DNA of 64,000 nucleotides. Origin: Cryptosporangium aurantiacum. Lineage in GTDB: Bacteria > Actinomycetota > Actinomycetes > Mycobacteriales > Cryptosporangiaceae. The position numbers were made by a program, and so were the translations under genes. The stretch is taken from assembly GCF_900143005.1 (NCBI RefSeq), contig NZ_FRCS01000005.1, positions 496,001 through 560,000 on the forward strand, in the 5' to 3' direction. The number at the start of each line of letters is the position of its first letter. Within the stretch, counting starts at the first letter, position 1. The notes below the pieces were generated by a model that did no database searches, was not told the origin of the DNA, and was given only the letters and a program-made list of their open reading frames with translations. This document shows positions 2,493 through 60,626 of the stretch, one piece after another.

Positions 2493-3134
2493 CTAGCCGG
2501 CGTCTCTGACGAGCAGGGCGACCTGCACGCGGTTCTCGCAGCCCAGCTTGGTCAGCACCCGGCTGACGTAGGTCTTCACGGTCGTCTCGCTGGTGCGCGA
2601 CCGACGGGCGATCTCCGCGTTCGACAGGCCCTCGGCAACAAGGCCGGCGACCTCACGTTCGCGGCCGGTCAGTGCGGCGAGCCGCCGGATCGCGTCCTGC
2701 CTGCGGCCGATGTCGTCGGGCGCCACCAGGCCCAGCACGATCCGGGCGGCGGCCGGCGAGAGGTACGCCTCGCCCGCGTGCGCCGCCGACACGGCGCCGA
2801 TCAGCTCCGCCGGGGTGCAATTCTTGAGCAGGAACCCGGCTGCCCGGTGCTCTACCGCGCGTAGGACGTTCGGCTCAGCTCCGAACGAGGTCAGGACGAC
2901 GACCGGCAGCTCGGGCCTGCGGCGATGGAGTTCCTCGACCACGCCCAGCCCGTCGAGCACCGGCATCCGGATGTCGACGAGCACCACGTCGACGTCCGGG
3001 CGTGACGCCCGCTCGACCGCTGCCCGCCCGTCCTCCACCTGGGCCACCACGCTGATCCCGGGATCGGACTCCAGTACCGCGACGATCCCCGCCCGGATCA
3101 GCGGCTCGTCGTCCGCGATCAGCACCCGGATCAC
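2493..3134 (-). CDS. NarL/LuxR-family response regulator
   Basis: A 213-residue response regulator. The receiver domain starts with IRVLIADDEPLIRAG, has the phospho-acceptor Asp at about residue 54 (LVDIRMP) and the conserved Lys near 104 (GFLLKN). A LuxR-type helix-turn-helix covers about residues 145-210 (LTGREREV, SNAEIA, TVKTYV). A GTG at 3134 is taken as start because it places the receiver motif at the N-terminus; the reading frame is open further upstream, but that would only add sequence shared with the kinase gene. It begins 1 nt after the kinase stop, so the two are cotranscribed and form a cognate pair. Confidence 0.93.
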   Translation of the reverse strand: MIRVLIADDEPLIRAGIVAVLESDPGISVVAQVEDGRAAVERASRPDVDVVLVDIRMPVLDGLGVVEELHRRRPELPVVVLTSFGAEPNVLRAVEHRAAGFLLKNCTPAELIGAVSAAHAGEAYLSPAAARIVLGLVAPDDIGRRQDAIRRLAALTGREREVAGLVAEGLSNAEIARRSRTSETTVKTYVSRVLTKLGCENRVQVALLVRDAG

Positions 3135-3135
3135 G

Positions 3136-4809
3136 TCAGCCGGCTCCCACCAGCATCGCGGCGGGCAACGCGCCGAACAGCAGCACGGCGGTCGCCACCC
3201 CGACCGCGGTCGACCGCCCCCGCCCGACGCCTGCGACCGGCTCAGGCTCCCGGACCAGCGTCGGGACGAGCACGGTGAGCCGGGCCTCGCCACGGTCGCG
3301 GCGCAGCGTGGCATATCCACCCACGGATTCGATCCGTTCCCGCACCCCGACGAGCCCATGCCCGCCCCGAGCAACCGCCACCGCGCCCCCAACGCCCACC
3401 GAGCCCACCCCCGCCCGACCCGCGTCAGCCAAACCCGCCGCCCGCCCTGCATCGGCCGAGCCAGCCTCCACCCGACCCACGCCGGCCAAGCCTTCGTAGC
3501 CCGGGCCCAAGCCCGCCCCGCCCGCCTGGGCCGAGCGCGTCCCCACCAGACCCGCGTCAGCCATGTCCGCGTGCCCCGGCCTCAGGCCCGCCCAGCCCGG
3601 GCACGCACCCCTCCGACCCATGGCAGCCGCGCCCGCATCCGCCCAGCCCGCGTCAGCCGAGCCCACCCGGCCCAGGCCCAGGCCCACCTCGCCCGCCTGG
3701 GCCGAGCGCACCCCCACCCGACCCATGTCGGCCGCGCCCGCATCCGCCCAGCCCGCGTCAGCCGAGCCCACCCGGCCCAGGCCCGCCCCACCCACATCCG
3801 CCGCACCCACCTGGCCCGGACCCAAGCCCGGCCCGCCCGCAGCGGGCCGAGCCGGGGACGGGGCGGGCGTTGGGCGGATCGGGTTGACGACCGTGAGCAG
3901 CAACGCGTCGTCCTCCCAGCCCAGCGACACGGTCACCGCGCACGTCGGCGCGTGCTTCGTCGCGTTCGTGAGGCCCTCCTCGACCGCCCGGTACACGGCG
4001 CGGTCGGCCTCGTCGGTCAGCAGGCCCGGTTCGCCGCGGCGTTCGACCGTGACCGGCACACCGGCGCGCACGTACCCGTCGACCAGGGCGTCGAGGCCGT
4101 CCAGCCCCGGCGCGTCGATCTCGTCGCCGTGCCGCAGCGCGCCGACGACCTCGTGCAGACCGTCGACCGCCTCGCGCGCGGAGCCGGCAAGCCTGCCGAT
4201 CGCCTCCCGCTGCCGCGGCGGCAACTCGTCGACTTCCAGCGCCGCGGCCTGGATCGACACCAACCCGAGGCGGTGGCCGAGCGCGTCGTGCATCTCCCTG
4301 GCGATCCGCAGCCGTTCGCGCAACCGCTCCCGTTCCGCCGCCAGGTCACGCGCGCGCCGCAACTCCTGGTTGCGGTCGGTCAGCGCGTCCACCAGCCGGG
4401 CGTGCTGATGCAAGTAGCGGCCCGCGGCCAGCGGCAACGCGACGAAGACCAGGTACGCGGCGGCGTACTGCGACCAGGCCGCCGGATCGGCGACCGCCGC
4501 AGCGATCGGAACTCCGAGCGCGCCGATCGCCGCTCCGGCCACGACCACCGACGACGACGCCCGACCGGCCCGGAACGCGACCCACAGCAGCAGGACGTAC
4601 CCGAAGCCGCCCACCGCAGCGAGCACCAGCGCGGCGAAGAACGCGGCGGCAGGCCACCGCAGCGAGGCCAGCACCACGGCGCCGACGGCCACCGCATACC
4701 CCGCCAGGACGATCGGCGCCGGATGCGCCGCCGCGACCGTCACCAGCTCCCCCGCCGTCACCAGCACGACGAGCAGGATGACGCCACCGACACGCCTTCG
4801 AGTGCCCAT
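3136..4809 (-). CDS. DesK/NarL-type sensor histidine kinase with long ATP-lid insertion
   Basis: A 557-residue sensor kinase. The first ~130 residues contain several membrane helices. The HisKA_3 phospho-acceptor is His174 (REMHDALGH) and the N-box is EEGLTNATKHA (Asn near 282). Between the end of the N-box half (VVNP, residue ~310) and the GGHGLVGVRERI glycine box (~480) lie about 170 residues of Gly/Ala/Asp repeats, far longer than the usual short lid. The protein ends in a hydrophobic tail. ATG at 4809 is chosen because it starts directly before the first membrane helix. The gene diverges from an ABC exporter, a layout typical of stress- or drug-responsive modules. The input signal is unknown. 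Confidence 0.9.
   Translation of the reverse strand: MGTRRRVGGVILLVVLVTAGELVTVAAAHPAPIVLAGYAVAVGAVVLASLRWPAAAFFAALVLAAVGGFGYVLLLWVAFRAGRASSSVVVAGAAIGALGVPIAAAVADPAAWSQYAAAYLVFVALPLAAGRYLHQHARLVDALTDRNQELRRARDLAAERERLRERLRIAREMHDALGHRLGLVSIQAAALEVDELPPRQREAIGRLAGSAREAVDGLHEVVGALRHGDEIDAPGLDGLDALVDGYVRAGVPVTVERRGEPGLLTDEADRAVYRAVEEGLTNATKHAPTCAVTVSLGWEDDALLLTVVNPIRPTPAPSPARPAAGGPGLGPGQVGAADVGGAGLGRVGSADAGWADAGAADMGRVGVRSAQAGEVGLGLGRVGSADAGWADAGAAAMGRRGACPGWAGLRPGHADMADAGLVGTRSAQAGGAGLGPGYEGLAGVGRVEAGSADAGRAAGLADAGRAGVGSVGVGGAVAVARGGHGLVGVRERIESVGGYATLRRDRGEARLTVLVPTLVREPEPVAGVGRGRSTAVGVATAVLLFGALPAAMLVGAG
3370..3885 (-). repeat. Low-complexity coding repeats inside the kinase ATPase domain
   Basis: This stretch encodes Gly/Ala-rich sequence with repeated GRVGSADAGWADAGAA units. 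A copy of about 50 bp beginning gccgcgcccgcatccgccc recurs 105 bp (35 codons) later, at 3626 and 3731. The frame is kept throughout, so the insertion is translated rather than a broken gene. Confidence 0.8.
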
Positions 4810-4874: not shown

Positions 4875-4904
4875 CTGACTTGTGGACAGCTTGCCGCCTA
4901 GCGT
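4875..4904 (+). promoter_or_regulatory. Promoter of ABC exporter operon, predicted leaderless
   Basis: CTGACT, an 18-nt spacer and TAGCGT. The -10 ends 7 nt before the GTG at 4912, mirroring the divergent kinase gene. No ribosome binding site is visible, so a leaderless mRNA is inferred. Confidence 0.45.
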
Positions 4905-4911
4905 CCAACCC

Positions 4912-5634
4912 GTGCTCGAAGTGCAGAACCTCTCCAAACGCTACGGACCCATGCTGGCCGTCGACGACCTCACGTTCACCGTGCGGCCGGGGCGCGTCAC
5001 CGGCTTCCTCGGTCCCAACGGAGCCGGCAAGTCGACGACGATGCGGATGATCCTCGGCCTCGACCGGCCGTCCGGCGGGCGTGTGCTGATCGACGGCGTG
5101 CGGTACCGCGAGCTGGAGTACCCGCTGCGGCGAATCGGCGCTCTGCTGGAGGGCTCCACGGCCCACCCGGGGCGGAGCGCGCGTCACCACCTGCGGTGGC
5201 TCGCACAGACCAACCGCATCCCGGCCCGCCGCGTCGATGACGTCCTGGGCCAGGTGGGCCTCGACGGCGTTGCCGGACGCCGGGTCCGCGAGTTCTCGCT
5301 CGGCATGACACAGCGGCTGGGCATCGCTGCGGCGCTTCTCGGCGACCCGCCCGTGCTGCTCTTCGACGAGCCCACGAACGGGCTGGACCCGGAGGGGATC
5401 CGGTGGTTACGCACGCTGCTGAAGGGCTTCGCCGCGGAGGGTCGCACGGTGCTGGTCTCCAGCCATCTGATGAGCGAGATGGCGCTCACCGCCGATCACC
5501 TGCTGGTGGTGAGCCGGGGTCGCCTGCTGGCCGACAGCACGCTCGCCGACTTCGTCGCGGCGCACCCGGCGGGGTCGCTGGAGGATGCGTTCCTCGACCT
5601 CACCGGCCGAGCCTCTGCGGGTGGTGACCGATGA
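4912..5634 (+). CDS. ABC transporter ATP-binding protein
   Basis: A 240-residue ATPase of the antibiotic/multidrug export type. Walker A is GPNGAGKSTT, the signature is a FSLGMTQRLGIA variant of LSGGQ, Walker B is LLFDEPTNGLD and the H-loop is VSSHL. It energises export by the next gene, a membrane permease that overlaps its stop codon as ATGA. A GTG at 4882 would add 10 unremarkable residues; the GTG at 4912 fits both the domain start (VLEVQNLSKRYG) and the promoter position. Probably controlled by the divergent two-component system. The substrate is not known. Confidence 0.9.
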   Translation: MLEVQNLSKRYGPMLAVDDLTFTVRPGRVTGFLGPNGAGKSTTMRMILGLDRPSGGRVLIDGVRYRELEYPLRRIGALLEGSTAHPGRSARHHLRWLAQTNRIPARRVDDVLGQVGLDGVAGRRVREFSLGMTQRLGIAAALLGDPPVLLFDEPTNGLDPEGIRWLRTLLKGFAAEGRTVLVSSHLMSEMALTADHLLVVSRGRLLADSTLADFVAAHPAGSLEDAFLDLTGRASAGGDR

Positions 5635-6386
5635 ACCTCGTCCGGGCCGAACTGACCAAACTGTGGACGCTGCGGTCGACAGCAGTCACGCTGGCGGCAG
5701 CGCTGGCGGTGGGCGCCGCGCTGAGCCTGCTGGTCAGCAGCTCTCTGCGCAGCGCAGACGACGACCAGTTCGACGCGTTGTTCGCCGCGTTCTACGGGCT
5801 CACCGTCGCGCAGATCGCGCTGGTGGTGTTCGCCGTGCTGGCGATCGGGTCGGAGTATCGGTCGGGCACGATCCGCGCCGCTCTGGCCGCGGTGCCGCGT
5901 CGCGGGACGTTCTTCGCTGCGAAGATCGTCGCGGTGCTGGGGCACCTCGGTGTGAGCGCGCTGGTCACGGTGGGGGCCGCGCTCCTCACCGCGCAGGTCG
6001 CGTTGGGGCAGCGCCGAGCCGACGTCGGCGAAGCGGTGCCCGCAGCCATCGGCGCCTGGCTATACCTCGTCCTGATCGGGTTGTTCGCGCTCGGCGTCGC
6101 GACGGCCCTGCGTAGCTCGACGATCACGCTCGGGATCCTGCTGCCGTTGCTGCTGCTCGGCTCGCAGGGGCTGGGCAACCTGCCGGGGGTCCGCGTCGTC
6201 ACGCAGTTCCTCCCCGACCAGCTGGGGTGGGTGGTCATGCACCTGGCCGGGCCGCAGGACGACCCGCGCTGGGCACGGGACTACGGCCCGTGGACCGGGC
6301 TCGCCCTGCTCGCCGTGTGGACGGCAGCGGCCCTCCTCGTCGGCTACGCCCGCCTGCGCCGCCGCGACCTCGGCCAGACCCCTTGA
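5631..6386 (+). CDS. ABC transporter permease
   Basis: A 251-residue integral membrane protein with about six hydrophobic segments, beginning MNLVRAELTKLWTLRSTA, the usual start of ABC-2-type permeases of this export class. It starts at the ATG inside the ATGA overlap with the ATPase gene, so translation is coupled. The two together should form one homodimer-type exporter. A conserved cytoplasmic stretch (IGSEYRSGTIRAALA) after the second helix is typical of the family. Substrate unknown. Confidence 0.88.
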   Translation: MNLVRAELTKLWTLRSTAVTLAAALAVGAALSLLVSSSLRSADDDQFDALFAAFYGLTVAQIALVVFAVLAIGSEYRSGTIRAALAAVPRRGTFFAAKIVAVLGHLGVSALVTVGAALLTAQVALGQRRADVGEAVPAAIGAWLYLVLIGLFALGVATALRSSTITLGILLPLLLLGSQGLGNLPGVRVVTQFLPDQLGWVVMHLAGPQDDPRWARDYGPWTGLALLAVWTAAALLVGYARLRRRDLGQTP

Positions 6387-6405
6387 CAGTCACACGACGC
6401 CAACC

Positions 6406-6505
6406 CGCGCCAGCCCCATGCACACCCCGCGCCAGCCCCATGCACACCCCGCGCCAGCCCCATGCACACCCCGCGCCAGCCCCATGCACACCCCGCGCCA
6501 GCCAC
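6406..6505. repeat. 22-bp tandem repeat between convergent genes
   Basis: A 22-bp unit (cgcgccagccccatgcacac followed by cc) begins at 6406, 6428, 6450 and 6472, with a partial fifth copy at 6494. The copies are identical. It fills most of the space between the permease stop and the ABC-F stop and encodes nothing recognisable. Confidence 0.9.
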
Positions 6506-6534: not shown

Positions 6535-6594
6535 GACGTCAGCGCGAGCGACGTCAGCGCGAGCGACGTCAGCGCGGGCGACGTCAGCGCGGGC
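6535..6594. repeat. 15-bp tandem repeat crossing the ABC-F stop codon
   Basis: Four copies of gacgtcagcgcgagc (last two with g for a) start at 6535, 6550, 6565 and 6580. The stop codon of the minus-strand ABC-F gene lies within the fourth copy. Confidence 0.85.
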
Positions 6595-8206
6595 GGTCGA
6601 CGCGGCCGGCGTCCCAGACCGGGCCGTCGGTCTCGCGGACCTCGCCGTCCGCGGCGAACGAGAGGAACCGGTCGAAGCTGCGAGCGAACCACCGATCGTG
6701 CGTCACTGCCAGAACCGTGCCGTCGAACGCCGCGAGTCCCTCCTCCAGCGCCTCCGCCGACTGCACGTCGAGGTTGTCGGTGGGCTCGTCGAGCAGCAGC
6801 AGCGTGCAGCCTGACAGCTCCAGCAGCAGCACCTGGAACCGAGCCTGCTGGCCACCGGACAGCGTCGCGAAGTCCTGGTCGGCCTGCGCCTGCAGCCCGT
6901 ACCGCCGCAGCGCGGAGATCGCACGGCCCCGATCGAGTCCGCGCCGGGTTCCCGACCCGCCCCACAGGATCTCCACCAGCGGCTTGCCGACCCACTCCGG
7001 ATGCTCGTGTGTCTGCGCGAACAACCCCGGCACCACCCGGGCTCCGAGCCGCCACGAACCGGCCGACGCCACCGACTCGTCGCCACCGAGCAGCCGGAGG
7101 AAGTGGCTCTTGCCGCTGCCGTTCGCTCCCAGCACCGCGACCCGCTCGCCGTAGTAGACCTCCAGGTCGAACGGCTTCATCAGGCCGGTGAGCTCCAGGC
7201 CGGAACAGATCACCGCACGGACGCCGGTGCGCCCGCCGCCCAAACGCATGCGAACCGTCTCCTCGGTCGGACGCTCCGGCGGCGGACCGGCCTCCTCGAA
7301 CTTGCGCAGGCGGGTCTGCATGGCGTGGTACTTCGCCGCCATCGCCTCGCTGTTCTTCGCCTGCTGCTGCAGCGTCCGCACCAGGTCCTTGAGCCGCTGG
7401 TGCTCCTCGTTCCAGCGGCGGTGCAGCTCGTCCAGGCGGTCCAGCCGCGCGGTGCGCGCCTCGTGGTAACTCTCGAAGCCACCGCCGTGCACCCAGGCCG
7501 AGTGCGCCTCCAGCGTGACGACGTGCGTCGCGGTGCGAGCCAGCAGCTCCCGGTCGTGGCTGACGAACAGCACGGTCTTCGGCGTCTCGACCAGCCGCTG
7601 TTCCAGCCAGCGCTTACCGGGGACGTCGAGGTAGTTGTCCGGCTCGTCGAGCAGCAGCACTTCCTCGTGCCCGCGGAGCAGCGCCTCCAGCGCGAGCCGC
7701 TTCTGCTCGCCGCCGGAGAGCGTCCGCACCATCCGGTGCTGAGCCCGGTCGAACGGGACGCCGAGCGCCGCGACGGTCACCGTGTCCCACAGCACCTCGG
7801 CGTCGTAACCACCGGCGTCACCCCACCCGGCGAGCGCCTCGGCGTACCGCAGCTGGGTCGGTTCGTCCTCGCGCTCCATCATCGCGAGCTCGGCGGCCTC
7901 CAACGCCTCGCCGGCCACCCGCAGCCGGGCCGGCGCCAGCCCGACGAGCAGTTCGCGCACCGTCGTCTGGTCTCGGACCGAGCCGATGAACTGGCGCATC
8001 ACGCCGAGACCGCCCACCCGGGTGATCGAGCCGGTCTGCGGCGTCGCGTCACCCGCGATCATGCGCAGCAGCGTGGTCTTCCCGGCGCCGTTCGCGCCGA
8101 CCAGCGCGACGATCGCGCCCTCACCGACGCGGAACGACACGTCCCGGAAGAGCTCCCGCCCGTCCGGCAGCGTCTGACCGACCCCTGATACCTCGACATA
8201 CCCCAC
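6584..8206 (-). CDS. ABC-F family ATPase (tandem ATP-binding domains, soluble)
   Basis: A 540-residue protein with two ATP-binding domains and no membrane segment. Domain 1 has GANGAGKTTLL, LSGGEQKRLALEALL and LLLDEPDNYLD; domain 2 has GANGSGKSHFL, LSGGQQARFQVLL and LLLDEPTDNLD. A charged helical linker (KDLVRTLQQQAKNSEAMA) separates them. ABC-F proteins act on the ribosome, either in translation or in antibiotic protection; which applies here cannot be told. The GTG at 8206 is preceded by AGGAGG at 11 nt and gives the usual family length. The frame is open upstream to 8908 but overlaps the divergent phosphoglucomutase gene. Confidence 0.9.
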   Translation of the reverse strand: MGYVEVSGVGQTLPDGRELFRDVSFRVGEGAIVALVGANGAGKTTLLRMIAGDATPQTGSITRVGGLGVMRQFIGSVRDQTTVRELLVGLAPARLRVAGEALEAAELAMMEREDEPTQLRYAEALAGWGDAGGYDAEVLWDTVTVAALGVPFDRAQHRMVRTLSGGEQKRLALEALLRGHEEVLLLDEPDNYLDVPGKRWLEQRLVETPKTVLFVSHDRELLARTATHVVTLEAHSAWVHGGGFESYHEARTARLDRLDELHRRWNEEHQRLKDLVRTLQQQAKNSEAMAAKYHAMQTRLRKFEEAGPPPERPTEETVRMRLGGGRTGVRAVICSGLELTGLMKPFDLEVYYGERVAVLGANGSGKSHFLRLLGGDESVASAGSWRLGARVVPGLFAQTHEHPEWVGKPLVEILWGGSGTRRGLDRGRAISALRRYGLQAQADQDFATLSGGQQARFQVLLLELSGCTLLLLDEPTDNLDVQSAEALEEGLAAFDGTVLAVTHDRWFARSFDRFLSFAADGEVRETDGPVWDAGRVDRPR

Positions 8207-60377: not shown

Positions 60378-60626
60378 CTGCCTTCCCGTCGTCAGTCGTT
60401 GCTTCGTTCGGGCCGGGCGGCTGGAGTCCTTGCTGTCGGACTCTGTCGCTCTGCCTTCCCGTCGTCAGTCGTTGCTTCGTTCGGGCCGGGCGGCTGGAGT
60501 CCTTGCTGTCGGACTCTGTCGCTCTGCCTTCCCGTCGTCAGTCGTTGCTTCGTTCGGGCGGGGCGGCTGGAGTCCTTGCTGTCGGACTCTGTCGCTCTGC
60601 CTTCCCGTCGTCAGTCGTTGCTTCGT
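60378..60626. repeat. 73-bp tandem repeat upstream of secE
   Basis: Units start at 60378, 60451, 60524 and 60597 (the last is 30 nt long). Full copies differ at one position. Each holds CCTTGCTGTCGG, which also occurs at the first codons of secE, as if the array grew from that boundary. It fills most of the gap between secE and tRNA-Trp. Confidence 0.92.

Follow-up and report, generated by a model that had tools for sequence, protein, structure and literature searches.

A histidine kinase of Cryptosporangium aurantiacum has an ATP-lid of 173 residues, built on a repeat-rich stretch of DNA between two conserved boxes of its catalytic domain, and we consider it probable that this lid grew by in-frame minisatellite expansion at a permissive loop, with the kinase tolerating a disordered insert and with parallels in other kinases of the family.

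A DesK-type kinase with an enlarged ATP-lid

The gene lies in a window of 64,000 nucleotides, by which we mean the whole stretch of DNA that was analysed. The translation, a profile search and the helices and strands of an AlphaFold2 model gave a layout of N-terminal helices, DHp domain, CA domain and C-terminal helix, in a reading frame uninterrupted from residue 1 to 557. The kinase and its neighbours comprise the following features:

4882..6386, plus strand: divergent ABC transporter, with the ATPase at 4882-5634 and the ABC-2 type permease at 5631-6386
3136..4809, minus strand: sensor histidine kinase gene, 557 residues, ATG at 4809, stop codon at 3136-3138
4273..4296, minus strand: H-box EMHDALGH with the phospho-acceptor His, a motif in the translation
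3949..3981, minus strand: N-box EEGLTNATKHA, residues 277-287
3367..3885, minus strand: expanded ATP-lid, 173 residues (309-481), between the D-box position N309 and Gly482 of the G2 box
3346..3366, minus strand: G2 box GGHGLVG, starting at residue 482 and followed by VRERI, with a modelled helix at residues 484-495
3148..3216, minus strand: C-terminal helix, probably transmembrane, residues 532-554
2493..3134, minus strand: cognate LuxR/NarL-type response regulator, with Response_reg and GerE hits

A HisKA_3 domain scoring 48.9 bits against a Pfam cut-off of 24, the phospho-acceptor His, N-box and G2 box, and the adjacent LuxR/GerE regulator identify the protein as a HisKA_3/DesK-type histidine kinase. 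It departs from the type in two features: HATPase_c scored 19.8 bits, below its own cut-off of 26.4, with a match (residues 270-310) that ended at the loop, and the D-box/G1 aspartate of DxGxG was absent. DesK was the best solved relative by sequence, and all five PDB sequences matched were DesK (two of them entered as YocF). Across 30 aligned kinases, the window kinase included, E172, M173, H174, D175 and H179 of the H-box, E278, T281 and N282 of the N-box and G485 of the G2 box were invariant. The C-terminal helix after the CA domain is, in our reading of the AlphaFold2 model and the ortholog alignment, probably transmembrane, and its sequence was kept in all three congener orthologs. Some relatives (L017, L075, L089, L090, L102 and L103) carry a C-terminal domain with Cys-x-x-Tyr and Cys-Phe motifs past a similar helix; the window kinase lacks this domain.

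The likely GTG start of the regulator, a start choice that is itself inferred, lies just after the kinase stop (TGACGTG). The divergent transporter (ABC_tran 101.4 bits, ABC2_membrane_4 31.2 bits) is a possible target of the kinase/regulator pair. A 26-pair hairpin at 2425-2484 (-52.3 kcal/mol, z -10.8), located between a convergent gene for a Q/G-rich protein (ending at 2424) and the response regulator gene (ending at 2493), is possibly a two-way terminator. Tandem Repeats Finder (TRF) also reported a 22-bp unit in 4.5 copies with 100% matches at 6404-6503, just after the permease gene, a 15-bp array after it at 6535-6595, and a 73-bp unit in 3.4 copies with 99% matches at 60378-60626.

The loop DNA is a degenerate 15-bp minisatellite

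The loop DNA had a G+C content of 0.81, with a G-rich coding strand (skew 0.31), and 61% of the encoded residues were Gly, Ala, Pro or Ser. Against codon shuffles, its autocorrelation stood out at lags of 15 (z 5.2), 30 (z 8.5), 75 (z 5.5) and 105 nt (z 6.6), and none of 500 shuffles reached the observed self-match at these lags; lag-15 periodicity was absent from the flanking parts of the kinase gene by the same codon-shuffle comparison (z -1.1 and -1.0). The loop protein correspondingly showed surplus self-match at lags of 5, 10, 15, 25 and 35 residues. Two larger tandem structures were evident:

3574..3783, minus strand: two successive 105-nt (35-codon) units, the copies starting at residues 343 and 378
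3441..3599, minus strand: 75-nt tandem array (5 x 15 nt) in 2.1 copies, found by TRF

The 105-nt copies were identical over their first 53 nt and divergent thereafter, and TRF reported the corresponding array at 3613-3802 with a period of 105 nt and 1.8 copies. Both TRF periods, 75 and 105 nt, are multiples of 15, and the loop DNA is a degenerate 15-bp minisatellite overlaid by larger duplications, with the above-shuffle periodicity and frame-preserving period of a coding minisatellite.

The initial annotation had described an insertion of about 170 residues in the ATP-lid, read through by an open frame and flanked by an intact N-box and glycine box. Its limits lay within 3 bases of those found here, the conserved kinase sequence resumed in frame, and both boxes were in place. 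The Gly/Ala/Asp repeats that it reported were likewise borne out by composition (46 Gly, 42 Ala and 10 Asp among 173 residues) and by the periodicity above codon shuffles, while its 35-residue unit present twice held as to the period, which is exactly 35 residues, but only partly as to identity, the copies matching at 22 of 24 initial residues and at 24 of 35 overall.

As the DNA is very G+C-rich and the strand opposite the loop also had two of its three frames free of stops, the open frame alone is weak evidence of coding; that the loop is coding follows instead from the conserved kinase sequence continuing in the same frame beyond it. A mobile or dispersed repeat was rejected as the source, since a search of the organism's own genome with the loop DNA returned the loop itself and 41 weak matches without a second copy, the best other match having an E value of 6.5e-4 over 61 bp.

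We regard it as very improbable that the loop is an assembly artefact, that is, a repeat misjoined or over-extended, although it does sit in a draft assembly of 44 contigs. The 105-nt copies are identical over just 53 nt, within reach of ordinary reads, the 173 codons stay in frame and the rest of the gene follows as normal, and long lids occur in other genomes too, including a single-contig assembly (G001).

The insertion arose in or near C. aurantiacum

Each of the three congeners had one clear ortholog of the kinase, with 80, 64 and 57% identity in the region preceding the loop, and all three kept the regulator, kinase, ABC ATPase, permease and phosphoglucomutase genes side by side. The ortholog lids before the G2 box read NPTDDGAETAPG, NPVDGVTASG and NPAPADAGPGAAAGPG, with lengths of 12, 10 and 16 residues, in line with the short linker that the initial annotation had expected of related kinases; alignment with the closest kinases brought up no loop of such length in them. 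The net gain is therefore 157 to 163 residues, from 10-16 to 173. Among 150 genomes drawn from the order, matches at E 1e-38 or better came only from C. aurantiacum and the three congeners. A relative in Nonomuraea gerenzanensis (58.7% identity over 45% of the query), encoded beside a response regulator, had a short lid too. Since the orthologs and the Nonomuraea relative are all short-lidded, the insertion is new in C. aurantiacum or near it, and in-frame expansion of a tandem repeat within the C. aurantiacum lineage is the most likely origin of the loop.

Selection and predicted fold suggest a working kinase

Compared with the closest congener (G002), dN/dS was 0.24 over the 308 codons that precede the loop, 0.21 over the 73 codons that follow it and 0.16 over the 37 codons of the G2-box part; each value is an average that includes time from both before and after the insertion. 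These low ratios on either side of the loop suggest, as far as coding sequence can tell, a working kinase. The AlphaFold2 model, built from the 30-kinase alignment with a mean pLDDT of 66.9 and a pTM of 0.45, gave the ATPase core block pLDDT values of 93-97 at residues 241-310 and 94-96 at residues 491-510, and gave the loop values of 29-41 at residues 331-480, almost without secondary structure; an intact ATPase core with a disordered loop is thus predicted. A fold search with this model returned histidine kinases, GacS first (E 1.6e-5) and DesK next (E 3.1e-5), with a TM-score of about 0.5 by DesK length, a modest value owing to the model being large and partly disordered.

A disabled kinase, in which the expansion crippled the enzyme and left a decaying gene or a pseudokinase, seems to us quite unlikely. 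Some observations do point that way: HATPase_c fell below its cut-off and stopped at the loop, the D-box aspartate is an asparagine, and after the loop the C. aurantiacum lineage had accumulated 10 private amino acid changes, compared with 2 in its sister (p = 0.039, uncorrected). Relative to the distant G003, the C-terminal part also had a dN/dS of 0.77 in C. aurantiacum and 0.39 in G002. The surplus of private changes could reflect relaxed or altered constraint, but the difference between the parts before the loop (20 changes versus 14) and after it was not significant (p = 0.17), and by our own classification six of the ten changes after the loop swap similar hydrophobic residues. Further against a disabled enzyme, the dN/dS values against G002 stay low after the loop and over the G2-box part, the H-box, N-box and G2 motifs are intact, the asparagine is common to three orthologs without the loop, and the regulator still starts just past the kinase stop in a syntenic neighbourhood.

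With Asn309 in the window kinase and Asn in all three congener orthologs, canonical catalysis would not be guaranteed in these four proteins even without the loop. Among the kinases surveyed below, 115 of 326 were without D-G or D-x-G at the D-box. By this simple pattern count on related sequences, the median lid was 15 residues without the motif (n = 115) versus 12 with it (n = 211, p = 5e-17); lids of at least 30 residues occurred in 11 of 115 versus 7 of 211 (p = 0.023), and lids of at least 40, without a significant difference, in 7 of 115 versus 7 of 211 (p = 0.26), L090 being wrongly counted as canonical. Loss of the aspartate was rejected as a required driver of lid growth, as canonical DDG kinases (L299, L228 and L240) also have long lids, and was kept in part: the loss may relax the lid and leave it freer to grow, without being required.

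The lid is a recurrent expansion site

The kinases surveyed were HisKA_3 proteins of C. aurantiacum and its three congeners, of three further genomes from the order, and of named loci, actinobacterial and other; their lids were measured with two purpose-made profile HMMs. Of 379 hits, 42 duplicates, 3 truncated and 4 unmeasurable sequences were set aside, the last including a Streptomyces lid that reaches the contig end (L079), which left 330 measured; four more were removed by eye, namely L397 (two kinases in one frame) and L401, L418 and L118 (D-box mis-registered), leaving 326 lids. The measured kinases number 67 in C. aurantiacum and 52, 52 and 53 in the congeners, out of 80, 78, 71 and 60 family matches, and are mainly the top-scoring ones; the named loci were picked by similarity to the window kinase and form a biased sample, and as many of them extend only about 1.5-2 kb past the match, very long lids could be cut off. 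L397 (G001, C1:3959127-3961327) appears to encode a double kinase in tandem: its single open frame holds two successive HisKA_3 units, and the family search matched it twice, 1 kb apart.

Over the 326 kinases the median lid was 13 residues and the 95th percentile 35, with 18 lids of at least 30 residues, 14 of at least 40 and 3 of at least 100. By contrast, none of 327 kinases had 20 or more extra residues in the region from H-box to D-box, which at about 150 residues is roughly tenfold longer (18 of 326 versus 0 of 327, p = 2.9e-6). This says that the lid is where insertions survive, at least among these sequences, and does not imply that it is more mutable. Significant tandem periodicity was present in 10 of the 14 lids of at least 40 residues and in 1 of 14 control stretches just upstream (p = 0.0013); the best lags of the ten varied among 9, 21, 24, 30, 33 and 36 nt, and four of the 14 were without significant periodicity.

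The longest lid, Gly/Ala-rich and of 178 residues, belongs to a non-orthologous kinase of G003 (L299/L342, C1:393844-394869 and downstream), the closest relatives of which have lids of 11, 28 and 11. Comparable differences separate L228 (75) from its best relatives (14 and 15), L240 (51) from 13, 13 and 26, L297 (54) from its closest relative in G002 (16), L303 (47) from 15 and 14, and L226 (47) from 25 and 25; relatives here are the best BLAST matches among the measured kinases, with orthology proven by synteny only for the window kinase. Another C. aurantiacum kinase, L111, has a lid of 64 and is without a close relative among the measured kinases. Outside the genus, lids reached 105 (L353) and 56 (L352) residues, 62 (L075) and about 80 (L090, measured as 88 with some 8 residues before the lid) in Streptomyces, 50 (L069) in Kribbella, and 44 in L387, which consists of about four copies of a 10-residue unit resembling the G2-box sequence after it. 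The initial annotation had treated the loop as a single oddity, a view at odds with these other long-lidded HisKA_3 kinases. A genus-specific phenomenon was not supported either: lids of at least 40 residues were present in 8 of 224 kinases from the genus and in 3 of 68 from the three other genomes of the order (p = 0.72).

A common origin of the two longest loops was rejected, as their local DNA alignment score of 47 fell within the shuffle range (codon-shuffle mean 38.3, maximum 60; block-shuffle mean 45.1, maximum 75). Since best lags differ and the two longest loops are unrelated, the long lids seem to reflect local events. Tandem expansion within one species does not account for every long lid, given the four lids without significant periodicity and the L017/L015/L014 group, in which lids of 36, 36 and 31 residues in three congeners and 12 in the fourth show no visible sequence conservation; a moderately long lid may have been inherited in this group. 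On sequence grounds the lid appears to be a recurrent, permissive expansion site that has undergone several independent expansions.

The survey also bears on whether the loop does something. It had been proposed at the outset that such a loop would be expected to change the activity of the kinase or to serve for docking, and we weighed a functional regulatory or docking segment together with a length-variable element that sets lid dynamics and the kinase/phosphatase balance. The lid adjoins the nucleotide, large length gain within the catalytic part is limited to it, and in the L017 group three of the four species have retained a long lid. In addition, two non-orthologous kinases of sister species have nearly equal lids, 174 and 178 residues by the same measure, both with 15/30-nt lags, and another kinase, CroS, is controlled through a Thr of its ATP-lid that becomes phosphorylated (PMC12189002). 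However, similarity between the two longest loops does not exceed chance, and in seven genus cases the nearest relatives measured from other species have much shorter lids. The loop is also predicted to be disordered (pLDDT about 30) between flanks of low dN/dS, and expansion of the lid alone would be just as likely if an insertion anywhere else in the catalytic part were lethal. We therefore find a functional segment unlikely, and the earlier proposal is supported by no more than the position of the loop. We would give slightly more credit, while still doubting it, to a broader idea in which the DesK-type lid of high-G+C actinobacteria is a tuning knob: frame-preserving minisatellites would repeatedly lengthen a disordered loop and bring fast, reversible changes of output between strains, with 174 and 178 as extreme settings.

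A model for lid growth

Returning to tolerated expansion, the reading we prefer, we propose that an in-frame minisatellite of about 15 bp, G-rich on the coding strand, would have arisen within the ATP-lid codons of the C. aurantiacum kinase and grown, in DNA that is rich in G+C and codes for glycine, by replication slippage or unequal recombination. Repeated tandem duplication, of 15- and 30-bp and then 75- and 105-bp units, would have added about 160 residues to a lid of 10-16, while selection for the G2 box downstream, and for a regulator with its likely start just past the kinase stop, would have held the frame. The product would be a disordered Gly/Ala-rich loop off the nucleotide pocket, between D-box and G2 box, around which the ATPase core would fold as before, so that the kinase might still autophosphorylate and phosphorylate the neighbouring LuxR-type regulator, though possibly with different kinetics. 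Such expansion would be tolerated, and perhaps nearly neutral, because the lid was already flexible. In one crystal structure of DesK-DesR, lid residues 328-335 were absent from a chain and had to be reconstructed from a different DesK structure that does show them (PMC5231405); a mobile lid is thus normal in the DesK family.

A repeat-rich genome as the sole cause was rejected. A 400-kb sample of the C. aurantiacum genome held 101 arrays, 90 with a period divisible by three, and the resulting density of 25.2 per 100 kb is similar to those of the congeners (25.0, 16.7 and 28.8, the second resting on 16 of 20 requested stretches) and of 27 actinobacterial loci (27.1). Strong arrays (score of at least 150) numbered 3.5 per 100 kb versus 2.8, 1.9, 2.8 and 1.4. 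The window itself (1-64000) was richer than the sample, with 46.9 versus 25.2 arrays and 14.1 versus 3.5 strong arrays per 100 kb.

These results suggest that a loop touching the nucleotide can lengthen more than tenfold without clear loss of purifying selection, and that such lengthening has recurred at a single position in a very large family of enzymes. The ATP-lid offers a natural insertion site for kinase engineering, and domain searches can under-score such kinases, as the sub-threshold HATPase_c match illustrates. Were strains to differ in lid length as well, the tuning of signalling by repeats could be tested directly in this loop. Our searches of the open-access literature brought up no description, among the papers listed, of a histidine-kinase ATP-lid enlarged by low-complexity or tandem-repeat sequence, a result that is weak as evidence of novelty.

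Comparison with known systems

The window kinase is like DesK-type (HisKA_3, HPK7) kinases paired with NarL/LuxR-type regulators in its HisKA_3 domain, H-box, N-box and G2 box, its several N-terminal helices and its adjacent LuxR-type regulator; it differs from them in a lid of 173 residues where their median is 13, in the D-box Asn for Asp and in the extra, probably transmembrane helix after the CA domain. Mycobacterial PPE-MPTR proteins and Pentapeptide_2 (XNXGX) repeats have a 15-nt period and a Gly-centred pentapeptide in a long C-terminal array. The lid shares the period and a Gly-centred pentapeptide, here often ADAGx, but its residue pattern differs and it forms an internal loop, and a Pfam search of the kinase gave no Pentapeptide_2 (PF01469) match at E up to 0.1. 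Short-period arrays (15, 18 and 21 nt) are common among the in-frame coding minisatellites of high-G+C actinobacteria, as in the lid; unlike other coding minisatellites, the lid array sits inside a catalytic domain and has changed the length of the lid more than tenfold. The expansion is most likely an ordinary mutational process at an unusual, repeatedly used place.
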